From Planctomycetota bacterium (GTDB lineage: Bacteria > Planctomycetota > Planctomycetia > Pirellulales > UBA1268): DNA of 64,000 nt. Numbering within the stretch: position 1 is the first letter of the stretch; the number at the start of each line of letters is the position of its first letter. Made by a program: the position numbers and the translations under genes. A model generated the notes under the pieces. The model did not search any database and was not told the DNA's origin. It saw only the letters and a list, made by a program, of their open reading frames with translations. The stretch spans positions 62,001-126,000 of the forward strand of contig VGZO01000002.1 in NCBI GenBank assembly GCA_016872555.1, written 5' to 3'. Positions 2,604 to 64,000 of the stretch are shown piece by piece.

Positions 2604-3629
2604 TCAGAAACTGCTGTCGTTGAAGTTCTGACGATCGCGTCGGCCACCGAGGTACTGGTAGGTCTGGTGGTCGATGTTCTCCGCCACGAATCTCACCGAA
2701 CCGTCGCCCATCAGGAAACCGGCTCCGCCCGGGTGCCGCGAGCGGAAGCCCCACGAGTAGTTCCAGTTGCTCTTCGGCCAGCAGGCGGGGTTCTGCGCCC
2801 CGGCAGCCTGGGCCTCGGCCTGCGAGTTGTAGCAGGTGGTGAGGTTGTTGATCGGCACCACCGTCGACGCGTGGGCGTTGTTGAAGCCGTTCCAACTCCA
2901 CAGCCCCTCGACATGGTCGTGGCACTCGACGAGCACCTCGCCCACCATGATCGTCTTGCTGAGGCCGTCGGACACGTTGGCGAACGTGATCCCCTTCGGC
3001 GAGTAGGCGACGCGCGAGAACACGCCGGACACTTCGTTGAACGATCCGCCGTTGCCATGGTCGGCGTTGCCGTAGGGCTGCTCGCGGAACTGCTGCCACT
3101 GGTTGCAATTCCCGTCAGCGGAACCGGTCGACTGAGACCCGAGCGACCCGGTGTAGCTTCCCTCGGCCCAGCCGTACATGTCGGGCGGACCGGTGTCCGA
3201 CGGGCAGCGAGTGAATGGAAGCTGCGTGCTGCGGAGCTCCCTGCCGTCGATCAACTGCGTGCGGATGTCGGGATCATCGCCGGCACTGGGACCATTGCCC
3301 GCCAAGCCGAAATTGATCTTCGAGTACAGCGGCGCGAACTCGACGTAGGGCAGGATCTGCGAGTGCCACCCCAAGCCATCGGACCAGTTGGGGGCAGCGC
3401 CGGGCACTTCCGCAGCCTGCGGAAGCATCTGCTTCGAGTCGTGGTGGTTGTGGATCGCCAAGCCGTACTGCTTGAGGTTGTTGCTGCACTTGCTGCGCCG
3501 GGCGGCTTCGCGCGCCGCCTGAACGGCCGGAAGCAGCAGTCCGACGAGCGTGCCGATGATGGCGATCACCACCAGCAATTCGACGAGGGTGAAACCACGT
3601 CGCGGAGTTCGACGGTCAACATGGCTCAT
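2604..3629 (-). CDS. DUF1559 pseudo-pilin (prepilin-type N-terminus)
   Basis: A 341-aa protein. The start at 3629 is chosen because it has an AGAGGTG ribosome-binding site and puts the type IV prepilin cleavage motif [17 protein letters not shown] at residues 9-25; an upstream extension of the frame has no homologous look. After the hydrophobic helix comes the conserved AREAARRSKCSNNLKQ stretch. The C-terminus ends in the hallmark HPGGAGFLMGDGSVRFV segment. Planctomycetes carry dozens of these type II-secretion-like pseudopilins; their function is not established. A hairpin follows the stop. A second member lies at 25367-26434. Confidence 0.95.
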   Translation of the reverse strand: MSHVDRRTPRRGFTLVELLVVIAIIGTLVGLLLPAVQAAREAARRSKCSNNLKQYGLAIHNHHDSKQMLPQAAEVPGAAPNWSDGLGWHSQILPYVEFAPLYSKINFGLAGNGPSAGDDPDIRTQLIDGRELRSTQLPFTRCPSDTGPPDMYGWAEGSYTGSLGSQSTGSADGNCNQWQQFREQPYGNADHGNGGSFNEVSGVFSRVAYSPKGITFANVSDGLSKTIMVGEVLVECHDHVEGLWSWNGFNNAHASTVVPINNLTTCYNSQAEAQAAGAQNPACWPKSNWNYSWGFRSRHPGGAGFLMGDGSVRFVAENIDHQTYQYLGGRRDRQNFNDSSF

Positions 3630-3775
3630 GGAGCACCTCTGGATTCCCCGCAGGAGAAGAATAAATGACGCATCTGCCGAGAAACGAACGATTCGATGGA
3701 TGGACGGCCTGACCTGTCGCGCGCGACGTCGCACGCTCGTGCCATCGAGACCATCCCCCCCCACACGGGAAGAGT

Positions 3776-5299
3776 CTACCGACGGCCGCCGTCGGAATGC
3801 AAGGGATCGGCCACGGAAGCGGGCCGATTGAGCCAGACACGCAGCGGCGCCTCGGCCGGCCCCTTTTCGTCGGGGCGCCAGACGCCGGCGACGAGGTCGG
3901 GGCGTCCGTCCCGATCGACGTCGGCGACCGTGAACGAGGCGTGGTCGCAGCGGTCGAGGGCGATGGTGTGGGGGGCGAACTCGCCGCCGGGCCGCTGCTC
4001 GAGCCACAGCAGGGCCGCGAACGTGCCGGCGGGGCTGCCGGCGGCCCACGGATGCAGCGCGGACACGACGACGTCGAGATCGCCGTCACCGTCGAGATCG
4101 GCGGCTGACGCCTGCGATGCCGCTGGCATCCGGATCAGCTCGTGGCACGTGAATGCCCGCCCCCCTTCGTTGCGAAGCCAGCGGACACCGTGGTAGGGCT
4201 TGGCAATCCCGCTGTCCATCATGTCGCCGTTGGTGTGGAGGATGTCGAGGCGGCCGTCGGCATCGAGGTCGGCGATCTCGAAGCCGCTCGAGCCCCACGA
4301 GGGATCGGGGAAACGGTGGATCGTCGCGTGCTCCACGTCCCCGCCGTCGCGGCCCCAGTAAAAGTCGACCGTCTCGTGCTCCTGGGCGAACGCGGAGACG
4401 ATGTCATCGTGGCCGTCACCGTCGAGATCGGCGACACGCACCCCGAGCGCCCCGTGACGGGCGTCGAGGATCGTGGCTGCCCCTCCGTCCGCAGGCACCA
4501 TCCGCAGCGCCCCGGTCGCGCGCCAGCCGAACTCGGCGACGACGACCCCGCCGCCCGCGGGCCAGGGCTGCACCTCGACCACCCGCGACAGCCTTCCGAG
4601 CACAGTCTCCACGCCACCGCCGGCAGTCATCCGCAGCACGCGTCCCCGATCATGGTCGACGACGTTGAACGAGCCGAGATCGGCGAGCAGCCACCCTGCG
4701 GGATCGCTGCCCGACGACGTCGGCGTGAGCCGACAGGCGTGCGAGACACGCGTGACCGGCGTGCTCGAGACGGTGCCTTCGCCGCCCCCCGGCGCGACGT
4801 CGAGCGTCCAGCGGCTGACCTCTCCGGAGCGCATGTCGGAGGTGAACAGGACGCGTTCGTCCGGGCGCCACAGCACGTGGGCGATCACCGGCGACGGCCG
4901 TTCGCTGCCGGCGGCGAGCCGCAGCGGCTCGAACACCACGGGCGGTTCGGCCTCCACGCGGTCGGCCGCTCGGTCGATGCGCAGAGCCTCGGGTGCCGAG
5001 GCTTGGAAGAGGCGCACCGTCTCCGCTTCCGGGGGCCGTTTCAGGTCGCTGCGCAGCGACCGCTCGTAGAACACGAACCCCTGCCGCACCTCGCGGGGCC
5101 AGTCTTCCCGCGCAAAACTGGTCCCATCGGGCAGGGCATGGCAGTCACCACAGAACCGACGGACCGTGTCGGCGACCTCCGCCGACACGCCGCCGTCGGC
5201 GGCGGAGCCGATCGTGCCGGGCGGCGGCTCCGGAGTCGCCCGGCCGCACCCTGCGATCGCCAGCAGGCAGACGACGATGCCGCGCGCCCGACGTCTCAC
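3776..5299 (-). CDS. Lipoprotein with CXXCH haem motif and FG-GAP repeats
   Basis: A 507-aa protein. GTG at 5299 is taken as the start: it overlaps the msrA stop (GTGA) and is followed at once by a signal peptide with lipobox LAIAGC. A single cytochrome c motif, C50-G-D-C53-H54, comes right after the signal, then about 100 residues of linker. The rest is a beta-propeller with four clear FG-GAP motifs ([52 protein letters not shown]). Such single-haem plus propeller proteins suggest a periplasmic, membrane-tethered redox or binding role; no substrate is apparent. Genes for this combination are common in planctomycetes but uncharacterised. Confidence 0.85.
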
Positions 5300-57354: not shown

Positions 57355-60300
57355 ATGATCATCGAACGGATCGAAGTCGAGCGCTTCGGCGGCATCGCCG
57401 ACGTCACGATCGACCACCTCGGCCCCGGCGTCGAGGTCCTCCACGGCACGAACGAAACCGGCAAGACGTCGCTCCTCGAATTCGTGCGCGCCGTCCTGTT
57501 CGGGTTCGCCGGCTCGTTCCGCCGCGGTGTGCTCGACCCCGCGCGCGCCTGCGGCGGCCGGCTCACCGTGCGTGGCGGTCTCGACGATCGGCGGATCGTG
57601 ATCGAACGGCACCACGCCCCCGGCCGCGCCGTCGACGCCGACGATCTGCGTGTCGTCACCGCCGATGCCGCCGCCACGCCGCTGTTCCTCCGCGACGAGG
57701 TCGGCGACATCGACGAGGGGACGTTCACCGCGGTCCTCGCGTTCGGCCTCGACGAGCTCCACGAACTGCGGACCCTCGACGCCGACGGCTGCGGCAGCCG
57801 TCTCTACGAACTGGCCAGCGGTCTCGACCGCGCCGCGGTGACCGTCGCCCTCGGCAATCTCCGCGACGCCGTCTCCCGCCTCGACTCGTCCGATCCCGAG
57901 GTCTCGCCACTGGAGGCCCTTCGCCGGCAGCGCGCCGGCGCGGTCGCCCGGCTGGCGGCGATGAACGCGCCCGCGGTCGCCGCCGGAGCGCTGGCCGCCG
58001 ACCTCGCACGGGTCGACGCCTCGATCGCCGCGCTGACCGAGGCCCGGCAGGCCGCGGAGCTCCACGAGGCCGAGATCCGCGCCGCGCTCCCCCTCGAGCC
58101 GCTGTGGCGGACCCGGGTCGAGACCTCCCGGCGCCTGACGGCGATCGAATCCGACTGGTTGGTCCACGCCGACCTCGACGCCTGGCAGCTCGCCCGCCAG
58201 CACCGCGACGGCGTCGAGCGGATCGTCCGGGCACGGAAACGGGCCCGCTCACGCGCCGCCCGGGCGCTGAAGGCCCTCGAAGCGGATGCCGCGATCTGGA
58301 AGCGTCGCACGGCCGTGAAGGCGCTGTGCGACGAGGAGCCGCGGCTGGAGCGCGCGCTCGCCGAGGCGGCGCGGGCAGAGGCCGCTGCCCGCCAGGTGGC
58401 GCGGCGGTTCGGCGAGCAGCTCGGCGCGTCCGGACTGGCCCGCCTCGCCGCGACCCAGGCCGCGGCCGATCCGGTGCTGCCGGCGGGCCTCGTCGGCTCG
58501 TTCAAGCCGCTCCGCTCACGTGGCGCCGCGCTCGCCGCGGCCCTCCGCGAGGTCAAGTCCGCCCGGCAAACGCTCGCGGCGGCCCGGCGCGACGCCGAGG
58601 GGTCGAAGGCCGCCCTCCACGGCGCCACGCAGTCGATCGAGGGGCTGTCGATCGCCGCCGCGATCGAGGAGGCCGCCGGACGCGCGACCCTGCTCCGCAA
58701 CCGCATCGCCGTCGGCGACCAGGTCGGCGACCTCGACCGCTCGCTTGTCCGCCTCGAGGGGGAGCTGGTCACGCAGGTCGACGGGCAGTTGCTTCCGGTG
58801 CCGTGGCTCGTCGGCCTCGGCACGGTGTTCGTGCTCGGGACCACGATGCTGCTCTCCGGGCTGCTGCTCCCCGGCGACGTCACCGGTTCGATGGCCTACG
58901 CACTGGCCGCACTCGGCCTCGCCGGCACGGGCGTGGCCTCGGTCGCGACCTGGTCGCTCGACCGCGCCGCGGCCAACCGCCTCGATGCCGTCCGCCAGCA
59001 GCGCGAGATGGTCCGCCGCCAGCGTGCCGATGCGGCCACGCAGTGCGGCGTTCTCGACAAACGGATCGACGGGCTCCGGCTCGAGCCGGTCCGGCCCGGT
59101 GCCGAGCGCGGCGACTGGCTGCGGCGCCACGCGGCCGCGGCGGCCGCCGAGGTCGAGCGGCTCGAGGCGATCGCGGCCCGTGAGGGGGCGATCCACGTCC
59201 TCGCCGACCGGGTCGCCTCGGCCCGCCAGGAATTGGCCGCGGCCCGGCGCCGCGCGGCAGTGGCCCGGTCGCGCTGGCAGCAGAGCCTGCAGAAGCGCGG
59301 CTTGCCCGACGACCTCTCCCCCGGCGACGTCCGCCGGCTCGCCGACCACCGCCGTACGCTGCTCACCCTCGACGACGAGCGCCGCGCCGCCCGCGACGAG
59401 GCCCGGGCCCGGGCCGAGGAGATGACGGCGATCGGCCAGCGGATCGAGCAATTCCTCGTCGACTGCGACATGCTCGTGGAAGGCACGGCGCTGGAGCAGC
59501 TCCGGACCCTCCGCGAGCGCCTCGACCGCGAGGCGGGTGGTCAACGGCGCCGGGCGCTGCTGACGAAGCGGCTCAAGCGCTCCCGGCACCGTCACCGCGA
59601 CGGTCTCCGCCGCCTCGCGCTGGCCGAGCGCCGCGTCCGCGACGTGCTGGCGCGGTGGAACGTCGACACCGCCGACGCATTCGTGGCGCTCGTCGATCGA
59701 CGCCCCGCGGCCGAGGCCGCCCGCAAGGACGCGCTGGCCGCCGATGCTGCCTGGCAGGAGGCCCGGCGCCGCTACCAAGGGAGGCTCGACGTCGATCGGC
59801 TGCTCACCGATGCCCAGCGGGTGGCGCTCGACGACGTCGTCGTCGCCGCCGAGGCGGCCACCGCACAAGCGACGGCCGCGGTCGCCCGGGCGCGTGACGA
59901 GCGTGCGGCCGCCGCGGCGCGGGTCGAGGCCGCCGGCCGCGATCACTGCACCGAGGGATTGCAGCGCGAAATCGCGCAGCTCGACCGCGACATCGATCAC
60001 CAGCTGCGCCGGCGCACGCTGCTGGAGGCTGCCCGGGGCCTGCTCGAGGAGACCCGCGACGGGTTCGCCCGCGATCACCAGCCGGCGGTCCTGCGCGAGG
60101 CGTCGCGCTGGCTGGAGCGGCTCACCGAGGGGCGCTACGCGTCGGTCACGACCTCGATCCACGAAGCCCGGCTCGAGATCCACGACGGGGCCCACGCGGT
60201 GTGGAGCCCGGATCGGCTCAGCCGCGGCACGCGCGAGCAGGTGTTCCTCGCCCTCCGGCTGGCGCTGGTCAAGGATCTCGAGCGCCGCGGTGTCCACCTG

Positions 60301-60846
60301 CCGGTCGTGTTCGACGACGCCCTCGTCAATTTCGACGACCAGCGCGCCCACGCGGCGGCCCGGGTGCTCGCCGAGTTCGCCGCCGAGCGGCCGGGCCGGC
60401 AATTCCTCGTCCTCACCTGCCATGCCCACGTGGCGACGATCTTCGCCGCCGTCGGTGCCCACGTCCGGTCGCTGTCCGATCCGCGGATGGCATGGGACCT
60501 CCCCGCACCACGCCCCGTCCCACCCGTGCCGGTGCCCGCAGCGGTGGTGGAGGGAGAGCGGGCGACGACACGCCGTGTCGTGGTCAACGCGCTCCCGTCG
60601 CCACCGGTGCCGCTGACACGCTCGGCTCCGCCCGGAGGCAACCCCTGGGTCCCACGCGGGATCGCGCTCCCGCGGCCGACGCAGGCGACCGTCGGGCTGG
60701 CGACTATGGCACCCGCCAGCGGCGGTTGGCCGGTGAGGCTGCAACTCCACGCCCCGCACGCGACGGTGGCGGGCGATCGCACCGGCCCCGTCCTGGCAGA
60801 CGACAAGCCGGCCCGGCGTCGGGCACGAACGACCAAGCCCGCCTGA
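57355..60846 (+). CDS. YhaN-like SMC/Rad50-type ATPase with a central membrane segment
   Basis: A 1163-aa ATPase. Walker A is HGTNETGKTSLLEF (about residues 34-47); the ABC signature is DRLSRGTREQVFLALRLALV and Walker B is VVFDDALVNFDDQ (about 983-995). Long Arg/Ala/Glu-rich coiled coils occupy about 180-470 and 545-940. Two membrane helices lie at about 480-540 (LVGLGTVFVLGTTMLLSGLL, AYALAALGLAGTGVASVA), as in the Bacillus YhaN group. The last 110 residues are Pro-rich. With the upstream YhaO-like gene it should form a membrane-associated SbcC/D-like complex, probably in DNA end processing. Confidence 0.92.
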   Translation: MIIERIEVERFGGIADVTIDHLGPGVEVLHGTNETGKTSLLEFVRAVLFGFAGSFRRGVLDPARACGGRLTVRGGLDDRRIVIERHHAPGRAVDADDLRVVTADAAATPLFLRDEVGDIDEGTFTAVLAFGLDELHELRTLDADGCGSRLYELASGLDRAAVTVALGNLRDAVSRLDSSDPEVSPLEALRRQRAGAVARLAAMNAPAVAAGALAADLARVDASIAALTEARQAAELHEAEIRAALPLEPLWRTRVETSRRLTAIESDWLVHADLDAWQLARQHRDGVERIVRARKRARSRAARALKALEADAAIWKRRTAVKALCDEEPRLERALAEAARAEAAARQVARRFGEQLGASGLARLAATQAAADPVLPAGLVGSFKPLRSRGAALAAALREVKSARQTLAAARRDAEGSKAALHGATQSIEGLSIAAAIEEAAGRATLLRNRIAVGDQVGDLDRSLVRLEGELVTQVDGQLLPVPWLVGLGTVFVLGTTMLLSGLLLPGDVTGSMAYALAALGLAGTGVASVATWSLDRAAANRLDAVRQQREMVRRQRADAATQCGVLDKRIDGLRLEPVRPGAERGDWLRRHAAAAAAEVERLEAIAAREGAIHVLADRVASARQELAAARRRAAVARSRWQQSLQKRGLPDDLSPGDVRRLADHRRTLLTLDDERRAARDEARARAEEMTAIGQRIEQFLVDCDMLVEGTALEQLRTLRERLDREAGGQRRRALLTKRLKRSRHRHRDGLRRLALAERRVRDVLARWNVDTADAFVALVDRRPAAEAARKDALAADAAWQEARRRYQGRLDVDRLLTDAQRVALDDVVVAAEAATAQATAAVARARDERAAAAARVEAAGRDHCTEGLQREIAQLDRDIDHQLRRRTLLEAARGLLEETRDGFARDHQPAVLREASRWLERLTEGRYASVTTSIHEARLEIHDGAHAVWSPDRLSRGTREQVFLALRLALVKDLERRGVHLPVVFDDALVNFDDQRAHAAARVLAEFAAERPGRQFLVLTCHAHVATIFAAVGAHVRSLSDPRMAWDLPAPRPVPPVPVPAAVVEGERATTRRVVVNALPSPPVPLTRSAPPGGNPWVPRGIALPRPTQATVGLATMAPASGGWPVRLQLHAPHATVAGDRTGPVLADDKPARRRARTTKPA

Positions 60847-61501: not shown

Positions 61502-62620
61502 TCAGGAGGATTTCACCCTCTCCACCGCGGTTTGTGCAACCGCGGTTCGGACGCGGTTTTCGCCCCCCGGGCCCGCGCTATCGCCGGGAGTGTCGCGGGA
61601 CAAGGTGTCCAGTTCCACCTGGAGCATCGTCAGGGCCGCCTGAAGGAAGGCGACGGCGATCGGCCCGACGAAGATCCCGATCGGCCCCAGGGCGCCGACC
61701 CCCCCGAGGACGCTCAGCAGGGCGAGGAGCGGATGGAGCTTGGACTGCCCGTGGAGGACGATCGGCTTGATGAGGTTGTCGATCGTCGACACCACCAACA
61801 GGCCCCACAACGCCAGGCCGACGGCGGCCCACGTGTGCTTGACGAAGAACAGCAGGTACAAGCTCGCCGTCCCCCACACGCTCGCCGCCCCGACGAACGG
61901 CACCAGGGCGCCGAAGAACGTGAGCAGCGTGAGGAGGAACACCCCCTTCAAACCGGCGACGTAGAAGCCGATCCCCGCCAGGATCGCCTGGACGATCGCG
62001 GCCAGGAGGGTCGAGCTGACCACCGCCCGGCTGACCTCCTCGAACTCCTCGAGGAGCTGCCACTGGTAATGGGCGTCGAGGGGGATCAACCGGGTGACGG
62101 CCGCCAGCATCCGGCGTCCGTCGGCGAGGAAGTAGAAGAAGCTGAAGATCGTCACCACCAGTCCGATGATCAGCTTCACCATCTTCACCGGAGCGCCGGC
62201 GGCGATCGGCCCGATCCAATCCTCGGCGAGCCGACGGAGCTCGCCATTGACCTCCTCCGAGGTGACATGCAGGCCGGTGGCGTCGTTGACCGACGCGATC
62301 AGGCCGTCGAGGACCGCCTGGTCGAGCTTCGGTCCACCGGGGCTCTTGAGCATCGTCACCGCGTCGCCACCGGCGCGGACGACGAGGAGCACCAGCGGCA
62401 CGAACACCAGCACCAGCACGAACACGGTCGTCGCCACGGCCGCCACCCAATCGCTGCAGGTGAACCGGTCGCGGAGCCAGCGGTGGAGCGGCCCGAAGAT
62501 CACCACCAGCATCGCCGCCAGCAGCAGCGGCAGGAGAAAGCTCGACATCACCCGCAGCGACAGCAGCCCGAACACGGCGACGAGGCCGAGGATCACTGCC
62601 AGGGAGATGATGCGCGCCAT
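61502..62620 (-). CDS. AI-2E family transporter (YdiK/TqsA-type)
   Basis: A 372-aa membrane protein of the AI-2 exporter superfamily. The pattern is typical: an N-terminal pair of helices (AVILGLVAVFGLLSL, FLLPLLLAAMLVVIF), a soluble insert of about 80 residues, then six more helices with the family blocks GVFLLTLLTFFGALVPFVG and the conserved ending VLGGVGALGPIGIFVGPI. Start 62620 follows a GAGG site. The C-terminal 35 residues are polar. Members transport autoinducer-2 or, in others, sodium/proton; no partner gene indicates which. An Arg-rich 23-codon upstream extension of the frame is dismissed. Confidence 0.92.
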   Translation of the reverse strand: MARIISLAVILGLVAVFGLLSLRVMSSFLLPLLLAAMLVVIFGPLHRWLRDRFTCSDWVAAVATTVFVLVLVFVPLVLLVVRAGGDAVTMLKSPGGPKLDQAVLDGLIASVNDATGLHVTSEEVNGELRRLAEDWIGPIAAGAPVKMVKLIIGLVVTIFSFFYFLADGRRMLAAVTRLIPLDAHYQWQLLEEFEEVSRAVVSSTLLAAIVQAILAGIGFYVAGLKGVFLLTLLTFFGALVPFVGAASVWGTASLYLLFFVKHTWAAVGLALWGLLVVSTIDNLIKPIVLHGQSKLHPLLALLSVLGGVGALGPIGIFVGPIAVAFLQAALTMLQVELDTLSRDTPGDSAGPGGENRVRTAVAQTAVERVKSS

Positions 62621-62811
62621 CGGGGAACCGCCTCTGCCGAGCAGCCGTGTCACGGGTCGTTGCCCGTCGATTCTACGGTCCGTCGCCACGCCGCGCCGAC
62701 CGCCGTCGGCATGGCGGCCGCGAACCGGGGCGGCTATCCTTGCCCGCTCCGCCTCGCCTTCCCCGAGCCGGTCGCGCGCCGCATCCGCCCACGACCTCCT
62801 GGTTGCCCACC

Positions 62812-64000
62812 ATGGCCACGCCGGACGTCTCGCTCGTCGTCCCGGTGCGCAACGAAGAGGGGAACATCGCCCCGCTGGTGGCGGAGATCCGGACGGCGCT
62901 CGACGGTGCCGGGCTCGCCTGGGAAGCCTGGATCGTCGACGACGGCTCGAGCGACGGATCGTGGGGGGAGATCACCGCCGCCGGCGCGGCCGACCCGCGC
63001 GTCGCCGGGATCCGCCAGCCTGCTGGCCTGGGCAAGTCGGCGGCGCTCGCCGCCGGCTTCTCCCGCTGCCGGGCGGAGCGGGTCGTGATGCTCGACGGCG
63101 ACGGCCAGGACGACCCCGCCGAGATCCCCCGACTCCTGGCACGGCTCGACGCCGGCGCCGATCTGGTCAACGGCTGGAAGCACCCGCGGCTCGACCCCTG
63201 GCACAAGACCCTGCCGTCGCGCGTCTTCAACCTCCTCGTCGGCGCGGTCACCGGCCTGTGGCTCCACGATCACAACTGCGGCCTCAAAGCGATGCATTCG
63301 GCGGTGGCCCACGGGCTGCCGCTCGACGAACCCGACATGCACCGGTTCATCGCCGCGTTCGCGGCGGCGGCCGGGCACCGGGTCGTCGAGGAGCCGGTCC
63401 ACCACCGGCCGCGGCTGCGTGGACACTCGAAATACGGCGTCCGTCGCTTCTTCACCGGCTTGGTCGACCTGCTCCGGGTCGCCGGCCGGATCCGCGGCCG
63501 CGGGCTGCTGGTGGCCCCGTCGCCCCCTCCATCCGCTCCGGCGGCGACGCGCCACGCCGTGGCCGCGGTGCTGGTGACGGTGGCCCTGGGGGGTGCGGCG
63601 GGACGGATCGGTGCGGTGTCGAGCGTCGATCGCTGGGGGCTCGAGAAGCGTCTCGTGGCCGAGGCCGTCGCCAAGGCCAAAGCCGATGGCGAAGCGGCCG
63701 ACCCGGCCGCGATCCGCAGCCGGATCGAGCGCGAGAAGCGGCTCGTGCGCCCGTTCCTGTCCGCCAACGATCGGAGCCGCTGGCTGACGGTACGGGCTCT
63801 GGTCGAGCAGGGGACGTTCGCGATCGACGGGCTCGTCGGTGAGCCGGGATGGGACACGATCGACGCCGTCGCCCATGACGACGGCAGCGGCCGTCTCCGC
63901 CTGTACTCGAGCAAGCCGCCGCTGCTCGGTCTGCTCGCCACCGTGCCGTATTGGATCCTCACGCGCCTCACCGGCTGGACGCTCGGCGACCACCCGTTCG
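62812..64000 (+). CDS. GT2 glycosyltransferase fused to a GT-C-like membrane region (3' truncated)
   Basis: The frame is open from ATG 62812 to the window edge: 396 codons with no stop. Residues 1-225 are a GT-A GT2 domain of the dolichol-phosphate mannosyltransferase type: VPVRNEEGNI, IVDDGSSDGSW, MLDGDGQDDP (DxD) and HDHNCGLKAM. After a Pro-rich linker comes a membrane helix (AVAAVLVTVALGG, about 247-260). From about 305 on, NDRSRWLTVRALVEQGTFAI, then GWDTIDAVA and YSSKPPLLGLLATVPYWIL, resemble the first luminal loop and helix of planctomycetal GT-C/PMT-like membrane proteins. A TATCCT -10-like hexamer lies about 75 nt upstream. Confidence 0.85.
   Translation, partial: MATPDVSLVVPVRNEEGNIAPLVAEIRTALDGAGLAWEAWIVDDGSSDGSWGEITAAGAADPRVAGIRQPAGLGKSAALAAGFSRCRAERVVMLDGDGQDDPAEIPRLLARLDAGADLVNGWKHPRLDPWHKTLPSRVFNLLVGAVTGLWLHDHNCGLKAMHSAVAHGLPLDEPDMHRFIAAFAAAAGHRVVEEPVHHRPRLRGHSKYGVRRFFTGLVDLLRVAGRIRGRGLLVAPSPPPSAPAATRHAVAAVLVTVALGGAAGRIGAVSSVDRWGLEKRLVAEAVAKAKADGEAADPAAIRSRIEREKRLVRPFLSANDRSRWLTVRALVEQGTFAIDGLVGEPGWDTIDAVAHDDGSGRLRLYSSKPPLLGLLATVPYWILTRLTGWTLGDHPF

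Follow-up and report, generated by a model that had tools for sequence, protein, structure and literature searches.

The stretch of DNA analyzed here (hereafter the window) is 64,000 nucleotides long and corresponds to positions 62001-126000 of C2, a 156,513-base contig of its own genome (G000, 162 contigs). At its right-hand edge, the forward strand carries an open reading frame that runs from an ATG at 62812 for 396 codons (62812-63999) without a stop, and a sequence-only reading had proposed that this frame joins a GT2 glycosyltransferase to a GT-C-like membrane protein. The stop-free frame was confirmed, and extension past the window in G000 showed that it ends at C2:127031; a stop or a frameshift between the GT2 and the membrane domain, which the reading had named as grounds against a fusion, was not found there. 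The whole gene occupies G000:C2:124812-127031 including the stop codon, of which 62812-64000 lies in the window and 1,031 bases lie beyond it, and the frame comprises 739 codons from the ATG and 806 codons from stop to stop. Its start codon corresponds to that of most relatives (MxxPDVSLV), and the third-position GC content is 0.83-0.97 along the whole fused gene. In a comparison with a 98%-identical relative on JAGWVR010000040.1, the dN/dS was 0.155 for the GT2 part and 0.086 for the membrane part; the linker gave 0.52-0.57 (the value of 0.52 represents two changes only), compared with 0.09-0.18 in the domains. Both domains of the fusion are under purifying selection. A chance open frame in GC-rich DNA was ruled out by the third-position GC, the dN/dS values, and the presence of the same long frame in many related genomes. 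By eye, a permease-like protein is encoded upstream on the other strand (61502-62689) and a pseudouridine-synthase-like frame lies downstream; neither gives a hint of an acceptor. A 1,163-codon frame at 57355-60846 on the forward strand, also assessed by eye, has a beginning like that of SMC/RecN-type ATPases (LHGTNETGKTSLLEFVRAVLFG) and long charged stretches.

The GT2 domain spans residues 1-225 (62812-63486, forward strand). Residues 7-126 matched Pfam PF00535 with an E value of 4.1e-22 and 79.3 bits against a cut-off of 23.3. The best match was Salmonella ArnC (residues 5-222, E 1.5e-33, approximately 30% identity), followed by cyanobacterial GtrB and the dolichol-phosphate-mannose synthase 5mlz. 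We also used an AlphaFold2 model built from 59 aligned sequences for the protein of locus L043, which is 98% identical to that of the window; its mean pLDDT was 90.8 and its pTM was 0.78. The top Foldseek ranks for this fused model were ArnC, GtrB, and Dpm, all on the GT2 part, and VIA-align, applied as a second look at the chains returned by Foldseek, gave Z scores of 23-26 between the predicted GT2 part and DPMS, ArnC, and GtrB. The ArnC match and the GT-A fold support the proposal that the N-terminal part is a GT2 of the polyprenyl-phosphate-sugar-synthase (ArnC/GtrB/Dpm) type. The first NCBIfam match was the ArnC model, far below its equivalog cut-off, so the sugar cannot be named from it. 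Residues 95-99, DGDGQ (63094-63108, forward strand), form a putative metal/donor motif, a role suggested by the family. D95, G96, D97, G98, and Q99 are invariant in 48 fused proteins and align with DADLQ of ArnC, a DxD-type metal site. Separate GT2 relatives mostly have DADLQ where the fusion has DGDGQ, but the separate GT2 of the G004 type (L084) already has DGDGQ, so this change is not linked to the fusion. In one record (L077 4001-4679, which probably represents the gene of G033:C535), the GT2 is split over two frames around residues 112-115 with the junction intact, probably through misassembly or because the copy is broken.

The GT-C domain starts at residue 248 (63553-64000 on the forward strand, residues 248-396 in the window) and continues to residue 739 beyond it; its first helix lies at about 63556-63615. 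A simple hydropathy scan showed a run of hydrophobic stretches, and membrane helices downstream of the GT2 were thus found, whose absence had been named as a further ground for doubt. In VIA-align, residues 249-720 of the model matched chicken ALG12 with a Z score of 24.9 (334 residues aligned, 4.0 Å), residues 249-722 matched AglB with a Z score of 22.3, and residues 249-724 matched ArnT with a Z score of 21.1; OST and Pmt chains came next. Residues 249-724 are predicted to be a GT-C fold with an outer loop after helix 1. The idea of a GT-C-like membrane part is therefore borne out by the predicted structure, whereas no Pfam family supports it: the window protein matched none of the Pfam GT-C families, and among the relatives no GT-C part scored over a Pfam cut-off, the best being GT87 in one relative (E 1.4e-4, 22.1 versus 25 bits) and PMT_2 (0.0017). 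A profile built from sequences of this part matched no GT-C protein among the solved structures, and the best named NCBIfam profile was LA3751_2_3_fam, far below its cut-off. As no Pfam cut-off was reached, membership in GT-C rests on the predicted fold together with conserved motifs.

Two of these motifs lie in outer loops. Residues 319-321, N-D-R of SANDRSRW (317-324), are encoded at 63766-63774 (forward strand) in the loop after helix 1, and N-D-R, including the acidic residue D320 of this first outer loop, is invariant in the 48 fused proteins. Asp320 (codon 63769-63771) is proposed to be the catalytic acid by analogy, because it occupies the loop that follows helix 1, as in known GT-C enzymes. 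A second conserved outer-loop motif, YSSKPP (residues 365-370; 63904-63921, forward strand), is invariant in the fused set. Across the class, NDRSR was present in 99 of 107 GT-C rows and SKPx[LIFV] in 102, and NYGG was likewise conserved (104/107). Of 198 genomes sampled in the class, 193 had the GT-C group itself, and this conservation suggests, with low confidence, that a common component of the envelope is involved and not a variable capsule.

The two domains are joined by a variable linker, residues 226-247 (63487-63552, forward strand), which was modeled with low confidence (pLDDT below 50 at residues 234-240) and sits at the position that a two-helix membrane anchor occupies in separate GT2s. 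Two hydrophobic helices follow the catalytic domain in 17 of 18 separate GT2s, and one in L097. The fused protein passes from residue ~229 to GT-C helix 1 at ~249 without this pair; the fusion therefore removed approximately 100 codons and changed how the GT2 is anchored, the GT-C helices probably now holding it at the membrane in place of its own two helices. Since the C-terminal pair that characterizes ArnC and GtrB in the narrow sense is missing, the fused GT2 was not filed as ArnC or GtrB proper. The wider synthase type needs no such pair, as there are eukaryotic Dpm1 forms without helices.

We then compared genomes of the family to which the window belongs (f1, 72 genomes), in which the junction was covered in 65 and not covered in seven. 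A single open frame ran across both domains in 60 of the 65 informative genomes (in a few, the gene is truncated by a contig end or has a stop or frameshift at another place), and the domains were apart in five; the same fusion, which the sequence-only reading had suggested looking for in relatives, was thus found. Among named records there were 47 fused genes that include the stop codon, 46 complete and one (L086) cut at the start, mostly from planctomycete metagenome-assembled genomes. In other families of the order, GT2 and GT-C genes adjoin on one strand, with a 4-base overlap in seven cases, and this adjacency reaches further families of the class. That the two enzymes are normally separate therefore holds in the order and the class. 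In a screen of the phylum, both domains were matched, among the matches listed, in the own genome only, and most matches outside the class were to the GT2 only.

Some loci departed from this pattern. In four f1 genomes of the genus g4 (G006, G256, G259, and G261; L171, L172, L173, and L174), GT2 and GT-C genes lie head to head, and their GT-C proteins fall outside the f1 clade, which suggests that the fusion was replaced by a transferred pair. These genomes use an unlike separate pair, so the function can be fulfilled without the fusion. The apparently separate gene of L089 within the fused clade is explained by its contig, which starts inside the gene. An independent fusion in family f22 had been suspected from frames of 650-700 codons and was rejected: the extra length of the GT-C protein (L122 2280-4280 and L123-L126) is a C-terminal extension of approximately 200 residues without a Pfam match, and no GT2 lay within the stretch covered. 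The best GT2 match in f22 is elsewhere in the genome, far from the GT-C gene.

A two-domain tree placed 30 fused rows in one clade (support 96/94) with G004 of f1 as its sister. In G004, GT2 and GT-C are separate genes whose frames overlap, and the helix pair of the GT2 is still present. A larger tree of the GT-C alone also grouped G004 with the fused rows (SH-aLRT 100), the branching order among them not being resolved. The simplest reading of these trees is a single fusion after the split of the lineage of G004. The fused gene would have arisen once from two adjacent genes on the same strand, in an ancestor shared by most members of this uncultured family of Pirellulales type.

A third gene accompanies the pair in several relatives. 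In eight separate loci of Pirellulales outside f1 (L093, L096, L097, L098, L102, L103, L105, and L109), the order is PF03706-GT2-GT-C, for example at 2963-3985, 3998-4999, and 4999-6525 of L093. The PF03706 (LPG_synthase_TM) type was assigned by Pfam in the three proteins tested and by similarity in the rest; for one protein of these loci, the best NCBIfam match was the flippase/synthetase MprF, well below the cut-off. A profile of the eight proteins found matches in 29 of 31 sampled genomes from other families of the order, which served as its positive control. Of this sample, 22 genomes were also searched for GT-C, and 16 of the 22 had both on one contig, a few kilobases apart. The operon type also occurs in further loci of the class. 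By the same profile, no operon-type PF03706 was found in any of the 72 f1 genomes, including the unfused G004, and no match to GtrA was found in the own genome; the flippase-like partner of f1 may have diverged past recognition. The only PF03706 protein found in the own genome (G000:C7:50505-51359; L187 4739-6010) adjoins an exosortase (EpsH) gene. PF03706 proteins of some kind occur in most f1 genomes, and this C7 protein has relatives in most of the f1 genomes that were sampled, as well as in three other genomes at approximately 40% identity. We do not assign it as the flippase of the fusion, since its neighbor is the exosortase gene, its similarity to the operon type is not close, and its relatives in two other families (genomes G048 and G054) lie near another GT2.

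We consider it probable (about 0.75) that this is a genuine, conserved fusion with one origin that carries two consecutive enzymes, a predicted polyprenyl-phosphate-sugar synthase and a predicted GT-C transferase. The cytoplasmic GT2 domain would use a nucleotide-sugar to glycosylate a polyprenyl phosphate, probably undecaprenyl phosphate, the polyprenyl-phosphate-sugar would then cross the membrane via another protein, and the GT-C domain, with the Asp320 loop facing the periplasm, would pass the sugar on from this lipid to an acceptor in the envelope. We infer both activities, the topology, and the role of Asp320 as the catalytic residue; to our knowledge, no activity is known for any close relative of the fused protein. 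The GT2 and GT-C domains are predicted to lie on opposite faces of the membrane, and hence the donor lipid must still cross it. The fusion is a strong hint that both steps are partners, and by itself it is no proof that one domain uses the product of the other.

A looser relationship is conceivable, in which anchoring or equal dosage was the main benefit of joining the domains, with the GT2 product entering a general polyprenyl-phosphate-sugar pool that also serves other enzymes and the GT-C being open to other donors. The fusion did take the place of the membrane anchor of the GT2, and the distant GT2 of f22 and the divergent pair in the four g4 genomes indicate that physical union is not required; however, the genes are neighbors in most of the order and class, often with a 4-base overlap, as expected of a dedicated pair, and we regard this explanation as rather unlikely. 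The fused protein might also be self-sufficient, making its lipid-linked sugar, moving it across the membrane, and using it. Such a protein would account for the undetectable PF03706 partner throughout f1, but G004 lacks this partner without being fused, which uncouples the loss from the fusion, and the own genome has a different PF03706 protein. We consider self-sufficiency improbable.

We give equally little weight to an arrangement in which one domain is inactive and kept as a scaffold or regulator. The DGDGQ of the fused family in place of DADLQ would be its main attraction, yet L084 has it as a separate protein; D95, D97, Q99, NDR, and SKPP are invariant in the 48 fused proteins; and selection is purifying on both domains. 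Finally, although the titled fused records come from metagenome-assembled genomes, an artifact of assembly or sequencing that joined two genes is extremely unlikely, given that about 60 f1 genomes share the fusion with a coherent phylogeny and that the junction involves the loss of approximately 100 codons rather than just a lost stop.

GT-C enzymes are hard to recognize (PMC5836110). Nor is it easy to deduce from sequence which lipid-linked sugar a given GT-C enzyme uses; in a natural fusion, one synthase and one transferase are linked as a pair. The fusion is thereby a functional lead for a GT-C group that is nearly ubiquitous in the class sample and has no Pfam family at cut-off. One polypeptide with both active sites, predicted on opposite membrane faces, makes a joint study possible and provides a well-delimited system in which to address lipid passage across the membrane.

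The GT2 half resembles ArnC, GtrB, and archaeal Dpm in its GT-A fold, in its identity to ArnC over residues 5-222, and in its metal and donor motifs, but ArnC and GtrB have a C-terminal helix pair, whereas the fusion is anchored by its GT-C domain. The other half shares with ArnT, ALG12, AglB, and Pmt the fold, the conserved Asp after helix 1, and an SKPP-type motif; it differs from them in sequence (10-15% identity, no Pfam GT-C cut-off reached) and in the added N-terminal GT2. In the established scheme of three-component (Gtr-type) glycosylation, a GT-A synthase, a flippase, and a GT-C enzyme act together (PMC11127046, PMC11754754), and the Bacillus subtilis operons YkcC/YkcB, CsbB/YfhO, and YkoT/YkoS are such systems (PMC5836110). 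The fusion contains the same two enzyme types, a synthase and a GT-C, and its separate relatives form PF03706-GT2-GT-C sets; it differs in that two components are one protein, with no GtrA in its own genome and the PF03706 of the ancestral set undetected in f1. We found no report of a GT2-GT-C fusion in the open-access papers searched, which does not imply that it is rare across other phyla. Both halves and the pathway are of already known kinds, and a synthase fused to the membrane enzyme of a neighboring gene is known from mycobacterial Ppm1 (Rv2051c/BCG_2070c), in which a polyprenyl-phosphate sugar synthase is joined to a membrane enzyme that is encoded by an adjacent gene in relatives (PMC3850990). 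The partner in Ppm1 is the lipoprotein N-acyltransferase Lnt, which is not a user of the sugar lipid, whereas the partner in the present fusion is a GT-C.
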